Of a stretch of 64,000 bases of DNA, positions 3,772-35,832 are shown one piece after another. The stretch lies in assembly GCF_025548555.1 (NCBI RefSeq), contig NZ_JAJLPA010000015.1, forward strand, positions 1 through 64,000, given 5' to 3'. Origin of the DNA: Sphingomonas sp. A2-49 (GTDB lineage Bacteria; Pseudomonadota; Alphaproteobacteria; Sphingomonadales; Sphingomonadaceae). The notes beneath the pieces were generated by a model, which was not told the origin of the DNA, made no database searches, and saw only the letters and a program-made list of their open reading frames with translations. Each line of letters starts with the position of its first letter. Positions within the stretch are counted from its first letter, which is position 1. Position numbers and translations under genes: made by a program.

Positions 3772-4551
3772 ATGGCGAGACTGACCGGCAAGATCTGCGT
3801 CGTCACCGGGGCCGCGCGCGGCATCGGGCGCGCGATTGCGGAGCGGTTCCATGCCGAAGGCGCCGCCGTCGTCGTCACCGACATCGATGCACCCGCGGGA
3901 ACGGCCACCGCCGCTGCGATCGGCTGCCGGTTCGAACCGCTCGACGTCGGCGAGGAGGCCGACTGGGCACGACTCGCGCGGGTCGTTCCCGTCGCCGACG
4001 TCGTCGTCAACAACGCCGGCGTCACCGGGTTCGAGGGGGGCATGACGCCGCACGACCCCGAACACGCCAGCCTTGCGGACTGGCGCGCGGTGCACCGCGT
4101 CAATCTGGACGGGACGTTCCTCGGCTGCCGCTATGCGATCGGCGCGATGAAGGCGGCGGGGACGGGATCGATCGTCAACATCTCGTCGCGCTCCGGCCTG
4201 GTCGGTATTCCCGGCGCCGCGGCCTATGCCTCGTCGAAGGCGGCGATCCGCAACCACAGCAAGAGCGTCGCGCTCTATTGCGCGCAACAGGGCTGGCGGA
4301 TCCGCTGCAATTCGATCCATCCCGCCGCGATCCTGACCCCGATCTGGGAACCGATGCTGGGCGACGGGCCCGGCCGCGACGCCCGGATGCAGGCCCTGGT
4401 CGCGGACACGCCGCTGAAGCGATTCGGCACGCCGGACGAGGTGGCGGCGATCGCCGTGCTGCTCGCATCGGACGAGGCGACCTACGTGACGGGCACGGAG
4501 CTGAGCATCGACGGCGGCCTGCTCGCCGGATCGGCGGCCTCCCCCGGCTGA
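3772..4551 (+). CDS. Short-chain dehydrogenase/reductase
   Basis: Classical SDR of 259 residues, NAD(P)(H)-dependent, cytosolic. The Rossmann glycine motif TGAARGIG is at 12-19, NNAG at 80-83, and the catalytic residues are S139 (NISSRSG), Y152 and K156 (YASSK). The C-terminal [15 protein letters not shown] is the usual cofactor/substrate loop ending. A strong AAAGGAGG ribosome site lies 8 bp before the ATG. An aspartate (VVTDIDAP) after beta strand 2 suggests NAD rather than NADP preference; that is inference. The substrate is unknown: this class includes hydroxysteroid and 3-oxoacyl reductases. It faces the MAPEG gene with a 31 bp convergent gap. Confidence 0.9.
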
Positions 4552-4582
4552 CGGGGCATGCGCCGCGAGTCGGGACCCGCGG

Positions 4583-5023
4583 TCAGGCGGTCGGGACGGC
4601 CTCCACCGGGATCGCGCGCACCGGCGGGGACGATGCGCCGGTCCAGGCAAGCGCCAGTCCCCAGATCGACAGCGCCAGCAGCACCGCCCAGGTCAGCAAT
4701 GCGCCCCCGGCGCGCCACGGGTTCGCGGTCGGCCGGTCCATGCCGATCGCGTGCACGATCCGGGATACGACGAACAGCCCGCCCGCGCCCCAGAGCCGGT
4801 CCGGGTCGCCGCCCGCCGCCTCGATCAGCGCCATCAGGATCAGCACGAACGGCGCATATTCGACGAAGTTCGCCTGCGCCCGCGTCCGCGCGACGAGCGC
4901 GGGATCGCCGCCGTCGCCGAGCAGGATCTGGTCCTTCAGCCGGACCCGGACGATGCGATAGGCGAGGATCAGGTTGCCGAGCCCGGCCGCGGCGGCGATG
5001 GTCAGCGTGACGGGCAACATCAT
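4583..5023 (-). CDS. MAPEG family membrane protein
   Basis: Small four-helix inner-membrane protein of the MAPEG (membrane-associated eicosanoid/glutathione metabolism) superfamily, 146 residues. Features seen: an N-terminal hydrophobic helix ([20 protein letters not shown]), the charged [14 protein letters not shown] loop, the family-typical [20 protein letters not shown] with its R-x-x-x-N-x-x-E pattern, then SRIVHAIGM and two more hydrophobic segments. The start is set by an AGGGAGGGG ribosome site about 8 bp before tandem ATG codons. Bacterial MAPEG proteins often have glutathione transferase or peroxidase activity, but the substrate here is unknown. Confidence 0.85.
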
Positions 5024-7857: not shown

Positions 7858-8211
7858 ATGGTGACGGGCACGCCCAAGGCGGTCGGCGCATTCCGCACGA
7901 TCGGCGAGGTTTCCGAGGAAACCGGCGTCGCCCAGCATATCCTGCGCTATTGGGAAACGCGCTTTCCCCAGCTGCGGCCCGTCACGCGCGCCGGCAACCG
8001 CCGCTATTACCGGCCCGACGATATCGCGCTGGTGCGCCGGATCGACGGATTGCTCAACCGGGAGGGCTATACCGTCCGCGGCGTGCAGCAACTCCTCGCC
8101 GAACCGACGCGTCGGGCGCGGACGGACGAGGCCGCGGACCTGATGCCGGCGCTCCGCGCGATCCGCGACCGCCTTGCGCATGCATTGGTGCAGGACGAAC
8201 GGCTCGCCTGA
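7858..8211 (+). CDS. MerR family transcriptional regulator
   Basis: DNA-binding regulator of 117 residues. The winged helix-turn-helix is clear: RTIGEVSEETGVAQHILRYW then RFPQLRPVTRAGNRRYYRPD and the second helix pair DIALVRRIDGLLNREGYTVR. The C-terminal part is short (about 35 residues) with no cysteine metal site like that of MerR/CueR, so the effector, if any, is unknown. It directly follows ihfA, a pairing conserved in alphaproteobacteria, and is probably co-transcribed with it. Downstream begins a 1.1 kb gene-free repeat region. Confidence 0.9.
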   Translation: MVTGTPKAVGAFRTIGEVSEETGVAQHILRYWETRFPQLRPVTRAGNRRYYRPDDIALVRRIDGLLNREGYTVRGVQQLLAEPTRRARTDEAADLMPALRAIRDRLAHALVQDERLA

Positions 8212-8686
8212 CGAGCGCGTCGGTCCGGGCAGCGGATCGCATCGCGGCAGCGGACGACGGCAGCGCTCGGCCCGCGATGGCCCGGCATTCGGTGCCGTCA
8301 TGTCGCGACGCCGGCGACAGACGCTCCGTCACCCGGATCGGGCCCTCGGGTCGCAGGCCGACGCGCCCCCGGTCCACAGCCCAACCAGCCACCGCCGCCG
8401 GATCGGGGCCTCGGGTCGGAGGTCGGCGCCCTGATGGGCTGTCAAGCGGCGCTGTTTTGACCTCGACCCGCTCCCGGGTCCGCCGATCGACGTGCCCCAT
8501 CCGCCGGGTGCCGTCGCTAAGACCCGTTCGGCCACGCCGCGATGGCGAGGCAACTTGCGCGCGACGGCGCGCAGAAGCGATCGATGCCCCGACGATCGAC
8601 GGGGTTCCAGTCCCCGCGCGCCGGGGTTGCGGCACTTACGCCACCACGACTGCCGATCGGCGTGAGCCTTCACCCGACGGCGCCGC
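8212..8686. other. Gene-free GC-rich stretch
   Basis: No convincing coding sequence on either strand: open frames here have no family signature and overlap one another. The only structure I see is a local imperfect duplication of about 33 bp, at roughly 8333-8367 and again at 8398-8430, sharing the core cctcgggtcg. It leads directly into the four-unit tandem array. Confidence 0.55.
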
Positions 8687-9299
8687 GTCCGTCTGAATAG
8701 GGCGGCGGCACGTATGGACGAGTGCGGCAGCTCGACCGAATCGCCGACCGGGGTTCGGCCGAACGGCGATCCACCCGCCTGTTACGTCGGCGCGCATCGC
8801 CTCGCACAGCATCCCAAGGTCGCGCACGGGACGGTGTCGCGTCCGCCCGAATAGGGCAGCACCCCATATAAGCGAGCGCGGCAGAGCGACCGGATCGACG
8901 GCCGGGGTTCGGCCGAACGGCGATCCGTCCGCCTGTCACGTCGGCACGCATCGCCTCCACAGCATCCCGAGGTTGCGCACCGGACGGTGTCGCGTCCGTC
9001 TGAATATCGCGGCACCACATATGGACGAGCGCAGTAGTTCGACCGAATCGCCAGCCGGGGTCCGGCCGAACGACGATCCGCCAGCCTGTCACGTCGGCAC
9101 GCATCGCCTCGCACAGCACCCCAGGTCGCGCACGGGACGGTGTCACGTCCGCCCGAATAGGGCGGCACCCCATATAAGCGAGCGCGGCAGAGCGACCGAA
9201 TCGCCGGCCGGGGTTCGGCCGAACGACGATCCGCCCGCCTGTTACGTCGGCGCGCATCACCCCGCGCAAGCATCCCCAGGCCGCGCCCCCGGTCGGCCC
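8687..9299. repeat. Four tandem ~153 bp repeats of alternating type (A-B-A-B)
   Basis: Units are 8687-8840 (154 bp), 8841-8993 (153), 8994-9146 (153) and 9147-9299 (153, degenerate at its end). All begin gtccg(t/c)c(t/c)gaata. Units 1 and 3 share tatggacgag and a tcgacc half (type A); units 2 and 4 share ccccatataagcgagcgcgg and agagcgacc (type B), so the higher-order period is about 307 bp. Every unit contains the palindrome gttcggccgaac or a one-base variant, at 8753, 8907, 9060 and 9213. The array lies between the 3' ends of merR and tetR (convergent genes). No protein family is visible in it; function unknown. Confidence 0.9.
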
Positions 9300-9326
9300 G
9301 GCGAAGTGACGGCCCGCTGCGGCCGA

Positions 9327-9971
9327 TCACCGGGTGCCCGATGTGCCCCCTCCGGCGCGCAATCCCTCGCGCAGCAGTCCCGCGGCGATATCCGCAACGT
9401 CGTCGACGCCGCGGTCCTCGCTCCAGACGCCATAGCGCAGCCCCAGGAACACGTTCATCCCCATCACCGCCCAGGCGTGGACGTCGGTGACGTCGCCGCG
9501 CACCTCGCCGCGCGCCGCCGCCGCCTTCAGCCGCTGCTCGATCCGTTCGGCGGTCGAGGCGTAATGCGCGCGAAAGCTCGCCGCGTCGACGAATTCGGCC
9601 TCGTCGATGATGCGATAGATCTCCTTGTGCTCGCGCACAAAGCCGATGAACTGCGCGAGGCCCGCGCGCTCCGCGGCGATGCCGTCCTGCGCCGCGCGCA
9701 GCGCCGGCGCGACATGGTCGCGGACCTGTGCGGACAGATCGGTGACCAGCGCCCGGAACACCGCGTCCTTCGAATCGAAATAGGTGTAGAAGCTGCCGAG
9801 CGCGACACCGGCGCGTCGCGTGATCGCGCTGATCGACGCCTCGTGGAACCCCCGCTCGCCGAATTCCAGCGCCGCGGCGTCGAGCAGCGCGCGCAGCGTC
9901 TTGCGCCCCCGCGCGGTGCGGGGCGTCTTGTCCCCCGCCCCACCGGCTGCGGCTTCCCCAGCGCTCGCCAT
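9327..9971 (-). CDS. TetR/AcrR family transcriptional regulator
   Basis: One-component repressor-type regulator of 214 residues. After an Ala/Gly-rich N-terminal tail the HTH is canonical: LLDAAALEFGERGFHEASIS, AITRRAGVALGSFYTYFDSK and DAVFRALV. The remaining ~150 residues are an all-helical ligand-binding domain with no recognisable subfamily. It is transcribed divergently from the TonB receptor gene, 120 bp away, and most likely controls that gene and the MFS gene; the ligand is probably the transported compound or a derivative (inference). Confidence 0.92.
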   Translation of the reverse strand: MASAGEAAAGGAGDKTPRTARGRKTLRALLDAAALEFGERGFHEASISAITRRAGVALGSFYTYFDSKDAVFRALVTDLSAQVRDHVAPALRAAQDGIAAERAGLAQFIGFVREHKEIYRIIDEAEFVDAASFRAHYASTAERIEQRLKAAAARGEVRGDVTDVHAWAVMGMNVFLGLRYGVWSEDRGVDDVADIAAGLLREGLRAGGGTSGTR

Positions 9972-10000
9972 CTACCGCAGCCCCCCTGTCATTTCCCAAG

Positions 10001-10029
10001 TTGAATCCTGGTTCAGGTTTCACTATAGG
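10001..10029 (+). promoter_or_regulatory. Candidate promoter with embedded operator for the TonB receptor gene
   Basis: A sigma70-like pair is visible: TTGAAT (10001-10006), 17 bp spacer, TATAGG (10024-10029). Within the -35/spacer lies the inverted repeat TGAA-N6-TTCA (10002-10015), overlapping a second palindrome CCTG-N3-CAGG. The site lies in the divergent tetR/TonB-receptor gap, so it is a plausible TetR operator. Called by eye only. Confidence 0.4.
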
Positions 10030-34983: not shown

Positions 34984-35832
34984 TTACGACGCGGCCGACA
35001 GGTTCACCGCGGCATATTTGCCGCGACGATCGACCTCGATCTCGAACTCCAGCTTGTCGCCCTCGTTCAGGGTCGACATGCCGGCGCGCTCGACGGCCGA
35101 GATGTGGACGAAGGCATCGGGCTGTCCATCGTCGCGCTGAATGAAGCCGAAGCCCTTCATCGCGTTGAAGAACTTGACGGTGCCCGTCGCCTTCTCGCCG
35201 GTCAGCTGGCGCTGCGGCGCGCCGCCGGCGCCACCGGGACGCGGGCCACGGTCGCCGAAGCCGCCTTCGCGCGGCTCGCGGGGCGCACGCTCGGTCACCG
35301 CCATCGGCTCGCCGTCGATCTTCAGCTCGGTCGCCGAGATCCGGCCACCGCGGTCGACGAGGGTGAAGCCGAGCGGCTGACCCTCGGCGAGCGAGCTCAT
35401 GCCGGCCTGTTCGACCGCGGAGATGTGAACGAACACGTCCTCACCGCCGTCATCGCGAACGACGAAGCCGAAGCCCTTCTGCGCGTTGAAGAACTTGACC
35501 ACGCCGGTGCCCTCGCCGACGACCTGGGGGGGCATGCCGCGACCACCGCCGCTGAACCCGCCGCCACCGCCGCCGCCGAAACCACCGCCGCCGCCACCGC
35601 CACGGAAGCCGCCGCCACCGCCGCCGCCGAAGCCGCCGCGATCGCCGCCACCGAAGCTGTTGCCGCCGCCGAAGCCGCCACGATCACCGCCGCCGAAGCC
35701 GCCGCCACCGAAACCACCGCCGCCGAAGCTGCTGCCGCCGCCGCCGAAGTCGCTGCTGCCGCCGCCGAAATCATCGCGCTTGTCGCGACCACGTCCGCCA
35801 CGATTGCCGCGGCCACCTTTGTCGTAACCCAT
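34984..35832 (-). CDS. Double cold-shock-domain protein with glycine-rich N-terminus
   Basis: RNA/ssDNA-binding protein of 282 residues. Residues 1-100 are low-complexity Gly with FGGG/RGG-like repeats (GRGNRGGRGRDKRDDFGGGS and more). CSD1 spans about 107-172, with RNP1 KGFGFV (119-124) and RNP2 VFVHIS (133-138); CSD2 about 214-279, with KGFGFI and AFVHIS. A charged Pro/Arg linker joins them. Double-CSD proteins occur in alphaproteobacteria; the long Gly-rich leader is unusual and hints at RNP condensation. The start is ATG behind AGGGTT; an in-frame ATG 45 bp upstream is possible. The 5' flank (35833-36121) is shared with the divergent exonuclease gene. Confidence 0.9.
   Translation of the reverse strand: MGYDKGGRGNRGGRGRDKRDDFGGGSSDFGGGGSSFGGGGFGGGGFGGGDRGGFGGGNSFGGGDRGGFGGGGGGGFRGGGGGGGFGGGGGGGFSGGGRGMPPQVVGEGTGVVKFFNAQKGFGFVVRDDGGEDVFVHISAVEQAGMSSLAEGQPLGFTLVDRGGRISATELKIDGEPMAVTERAPREPREGGFGDRGPRPGGAGGAPQRQLTGEKATGTVKFFNAMKGFGFIQRDDGQPDAFVHISAVERAGMSTLNEGDKLEFEIEVDRRGKYAAVNLSAAS

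Follow-up and report, generated by a model that had tools for sequence, protein, structure and literature searches.

The gap between a merR-family and a convergent tetR-family regulator gene carries four head-to-tail units of 153 bp, and the array is best explained, with a probability of about 0.8, as a lineage-specific, degenerate, long-period tandem duplication in noncoding DNA, without detectable function. All coordinates refer to the window, the whole 64 kb stretch of DNA that was analysed, which belongs to a draft genome of 3.93 Mb in 54 contigs.

Architecture of the array and its borders

TRF analysis of the window listed a single long-period array, with a period of 153 and 4.0 copies at 8671-9286 (score 838), and listed the same array at a period of 306 (1.9 copies, 8671-9258, score 966); the runner-up score in the window was 151, for a 24-bp period. 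Start-to-start spacings of 154, 153 and 153 in a repeat search of the window confirm the four tandem 153 bp units described in the sequence-only reading. Self-BLAST gave a self-alignment at a lag of 307 bp spanning 8671 to approximately 9289. The copies are homologous, adjacent and head-to-tail, as in a tandem duplication. The array and its surroundings are as follows:

7858..8211, plus strand: merR-family regulator, left border, outside the array (Pfam MerR_1, 2.6e-21)
8212..8670, no strand: spacer between merR and the array, no relatives found (repeat search, homology searches)
8671..8812, no strand: unit 1 (U1) (TRF, repeat search, alignment A1)
8813..8965, no strand: unit 2 (U2) (repeat search, alignment A1)
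8966..9118, no strand: unit 3 (U3) (repeat search, alignment A1)
9119..9271, no strand: unit 4 (U4) (repeat search, alignment A1, self-BLAST)
9327..9971, minus strand: tetR-family regulator, right border, convergent, outside the array (Pfam TetR_N, 3.5e-15)

The array starts near unit column 13 of U1, the preceding 12 bases being a poor match, U2 has a 1-bp gap at alignment column 146, and the likeness of U4 fades from about 9262. An HU/IHF-like gene (Pfam) lies upstream of the array. The block had been described as filling the gap between the convergent merR and tetR genes; the Pfam assignments place it between the two, but only about 0.6 kb of the 1115 bp gap is occupied. An assembly artefact is unlikely, as the copies are 7-18% different throughout and the longest exact run common to units is 34 bases, while identical extra copies or dimers could have been collapsed in the draft.

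Further repeats were recorded in the window. A 32-nt pair (8333-8364 and 8398-8429), 88% alike and 65 bp apart, lies in the same gap upstream of the array, to which it is unrelated. An exact 13-bp direct repeat (8362-8374 and 9282-9294) flanks about 0.9 kb with the array inside, and may be a chance match in GC-rich DNA. The 24-bp runner-up is a GC-rich, low-complexity repeat at 35536-35767, which also has a 3-bp period.

A two-unit pattern in one half of the unit

The units were compared over columns 13-143 of alignment A1, in which 34 of the 131 columns are variable. Eleven columns are informative and split 8 : 2 : 1 for the groupings (13|24), (14|23) and (12|34); the chance of at least 8 of 11 columns at 1/3 is P = 0.009, although columns 58-60 are adjacent and may represent a single event, which would weaken the count of eight. 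All eight columns that group U1 with U3 against U2 with U4 fall within columns 16-74, and the three contrary columns (108, 125 and 134) lie in the other half of the unit, a left/right ordering with a one-sided probability of 0.006. The left half of the unit carries a genuine dimer signal, and the right half carries none. The A-B-A-B pattern proposed from the letters alone therefore stands for the left half, whereas the informative columns of the right half all contradict it.

Pairwise differences over the same 131 columns set U2-U4 (9 differences) apart from the five other pairs, which resemble one another (U1-U3, 20; U3-U4, 20; U1-U4, 21; U2-U3, 21; U1-U2, 24), and the four units are not equidistant. 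Of the two proposed classes, 'B' (U2 and U4) is tight and 'A' (U1 and U3) is not. Growth by duplication of a 307 bp A+B dimer, also proposed from the letters, is favoured by the left half and by the period of 306, which outscored that of 153 in TRF, and is contradicted by the right half. The data are less consistent with a simple doubling of an already complete A+B dimer, in which case U1-U3 should have been roughly as near as U2-U4. A dimer step with local conversion afterwards, or unequal divergence, agrees better, and stepwise duplication in which conversion took place between U2 and U4 fits as well.

Higher-order repeats are a feature of eukaryotic satellites, and the array resembles them in its two-unit higher-order period, here in half of the unit; it differs in consisting of two dimers at one locus with a mosaic signal, and the likeness is of form only.

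Relatives of the array, its class and its age

With one unit as the query, the four matches in the source genome all fell within the array, 40 of the 103 first-look candidates having been scored, and with the whole array as the query none of 294 other genomes of the genus matched at E <= 1e-5. Searches with the 1115-bp gap returned, besides itself, three matches of 32-43 bp among 397 family genomes and five of 36-64 bp among 385 class genomes (source genome included in both), fragments that are scattered along the query and are taken as chance. The genus, family and class searches scored no more than the two best first-look candidates of each genome, and a very weak relative could escape. The array had no match in plasmid or phage collections. 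In 240 kb sampled from the source genome (12 stretches of 20 kb, approximately 6%), TRF listed one array with a period of at least 30 (43-bp, two copies) and the best match to a profile of the four units had an E-value of 0.16. Titles and abstract starts of the open-licence PMC articles retrieved described no comparable array in sphingomonads.

A looser search of 150 relatives, with five candidates scored per genome, detected 19 loci with fragments of 23-47 bp (E <= 0.001), in 18 of the 149 genomes other than the source. When the four-unit profile was run on the relative loci, the top match was L006 (18.5 bits, E 0.0008), followed by L007, L017, L010, L020 and L018; these overlap with the fragment loci of the looser search, a result against the array having no relatives at all. 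Six of the fragment loci (L006, L007, L017, L018, L020 and L022) lie inside the same conserved gene, which is a frame of 567 codons in L006 and has counterparts 70-76% alike in the other five, and together they therefore count as roughly a single coincidence. Every one of the 19 fragments overlaps an open frame of at least 100 codons, which is weak evidence given the G+C-rich DNA, and the L010 fragment sits at the edge of such a frame. The fragments are taken as chance, although ancestry shared with a gene fragment is conceivable.

Several known repeat classes share features with the array. Like bacterial minisatellites (VNTR), it is head-to-tail, intergenic and confined to one lineage with few copies, but its unit is long (153 bp) and adjacent copies are 78%, 85% and 82% identical over the whole unit. 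A passage of PMC2884548 gives at least 90% identity between repeats as a minisatellite search criterion, a level above that of the adjacent pairs; the nearest approach is U2-U4, at 89.5% over the whole unit and approximately 93% over columns 13-143. REP or palindromic units and dispersed intergenic repeats are likewise intergenic and contain short palindromes, but they occupy many separate loci, and the four matches in the source genome lie at one locus.

CRISPR arrays consist of short, near-identical repeats of about 23-47 bp with unlike spacers, whereas the present array has a 143-nt core in a 153-nt unit, 77-93% alike to the reference copy, without unlike spacers. The sequence-only reading, which recognised no IS, CRISPR or REP type, was borne out as far as the searches extended: one locus in the source genome, no inverted repeats at the edges among the 10 pairs listed, and fragments of 23-64 bp in other genomes.

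An inserted mobile element (IS, MITE or integrative element) that left remains between merR and tetR would suit a gap that is larger than those of the 26 relatives measured, and the 13-bp direct repeat at 8362 and 9282 could be read as its trace, but two-copy matches of 13 bp are frequently chance. Neither the terminal inverted repeats nor the further copies that an IS or MITE requires were found: the 10 inverted-repeat pairs listed include none at the array edges, the three that span the block (I1, I5 and I6) have at least one arm inside merR or tetR, and no second copy was found in the genome among the candidates scored. With no phage or plasmid match and no transposase-like Pfam match in the two gap frames tested, a mobile origin is considered very unlikely.

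The array could also have arisen from the tail of its neighbour, as repeated partial copies of the tetR 3' end, since about 28 bp at the end of the unit resemble that end and the doubled consensus scored 54, where shuffles averaged 36.8 and 15 of 1000 did as well. However, of the 1292 other slices taken from both strands of the window, 19 scored as high, single units did no better than shuffles (the scores of U1-U4 were reached by 53, 195, 174 and 68 of 300, respectively) and that of the whole array was reached by 118 of 300. A DNA profile of 27 tetR 3' ends gave E-values of 4.1 and 4.7 on the array, weaker than its chance matches in other parts of the window, and a protein profile gave E 0.67 for its best gap frame. 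There is little probability that tetR is the source.

The site was compared in 109 relative loci, comprising 29 with merR and roughly 1.5 kb of flanking sequence on either side and 80 kept of 342 confirmed loci. Most of the 109 have the order plsX-fabH-ihfA-merR in common. The merR-tetR gap was measurable in 26 of these and ranges from -14 to 704 bp, compared with 1115 bp here; the remaining 83 were left out of the count, as no sufficiently similar convergent tetR relative was found in the stretch compared. TRF listed no tandem array with a period of at least 40 in the 109 loci. When eight relative gaps were aligned with the window gap, only gene ends aligned below E 0.05, and the best match of the unit profile to these gaps, in L032, had an E-value of 0.023 over 46 bases, a value that refers to this small set.

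Divergence at four-fold sites is 0.24-0.39 for fabH in nine relative loci and 0.32-0.50 for tetR in seven of them (L026 and L055 have identical values and are possibly one species). Unit divergence of 7-18% is below this 24-50% and suits an array that may be younger than those splits, although conversion could likewise hold the units alike. Both the age and the neutrality of the array are based on such between-species comparisons.

Two relatives differ at the site in other ways. The merR-tetR gap of L070 has a 94-aa open frame at about 4300-4930 that, we presume, has a GIY-YIG-like look, and the gap therefore seems to tolerate insertions. In Sphingomonas melonis AS2.3 (L057, 4001-5657), merR is followed after about 55 bp by a relative of the MFS gene of the window, with no relative of tetR or of the TonB receptor in the locus at E <= 1e-5.

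Coding, RNA and regulatory readings, and the meaning of the array

The array has a period divisible by 3 and a minus-strand frame without stops through units 4, 3 and 2, as in a repeat protein with 51-residue repeats (ORF 8670-9269, 199 aa). Unit 1 is one base off this register, with a similar reading in another frame, and other long frames run over the same stretch, e.g. 8973-10004 (plus strand) and 8782-10023 (minus strand). G+C by codon phase is flat in the array (0.71/0.70/0.67) compared with fabH (0.71/0.50/0.91), and the variable columns are spread 14/12/8 across the phases with no codon position in excess, so that the three-base periodicity of a protein-coding repeat is absent from both G+C and the differences. 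No Pfam family scored above cut-off in the two gap frames tested, and we regard a repeat protein as extremely unlikely.

The perfect palindrome GTTCGGCCGAAC is present in three of the four units and confined to the array within the genome, and the plus strand of unit 2 has a fold somewhat more stable than its shuffles (z -1.8, reached by 8 of 200), which could indicate tandem structured noncoding RNA units or protein-binding sites acting as a sponge, a terminator or a boundary between the convergent genes. Against this, GTTCGGCCGAAC is lost in unit 3, and its uniqueness in the genome carries little weight since chance alone would supply about half an occurrence by our estimate; its absence beyond the array also gives no indication of the site of a genome-wide regulator. 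Across the eight unit strands, the folding z-scores range from -1.8 to +0.9 (-1.1 for the minus strand of unit 2, -1.0 to +0.9 for the other units), and compensatory changes were seen in 0 of 37 consensus pairs, although four sequences give low power and exclude an RNA only weakly. No Rfam family matched in the window at gathering thresholds, and the single weak terminator-like site (8438-8450) is outside the array. A structured RNA or protein-binding role is improbable.

The reading best supported remains a degenerate tandem duplication, ordinary overall and private to its lineage. A 153-bp intergenic stretch without detected relatives would have been amplified head-to-tail by replication slippage or unequal recombination, mechanisms suggested by the form of the array, with a 306/307-bp dimer step accounting for at least part of the growth. 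Point mutation would later have made the copies diverge in an array that is now decaying, U2 and U4 being held alike or, as we infer, converted, and the two halves of the unit would consequently record different histories. Probably the array does nothing that is selected: extra DNA between convergent genes disturbs neither promoter, which makes the lack of a selected role plausible, and the absence of function is suggested by the lack of any conservation, coding, structural or dispersed signal. The neighbours on both sides, however, are regulators, so that a transcript is conceivable, one minus-strand frame stays open across the array, and GTTCGGCCGAAC in three of four units leaves room for a private candidate binding site. 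A young, species-private regulatory block, in which GTTCGGCCGAAC sites for a local regulator, for example the TetR or MerR of this locus, would have been amplified as dimers and the B units homogenised, has a minimal probability.

If the palindromes did bind a local regulator, the array would be a newly born regulatory array, although nothing points strongly in that direction. As it stands, the array is of little significance, a well-delimited, lineage-private, long-period tandem duplication, which may serve as a strain-typing marker if its copy number varies.
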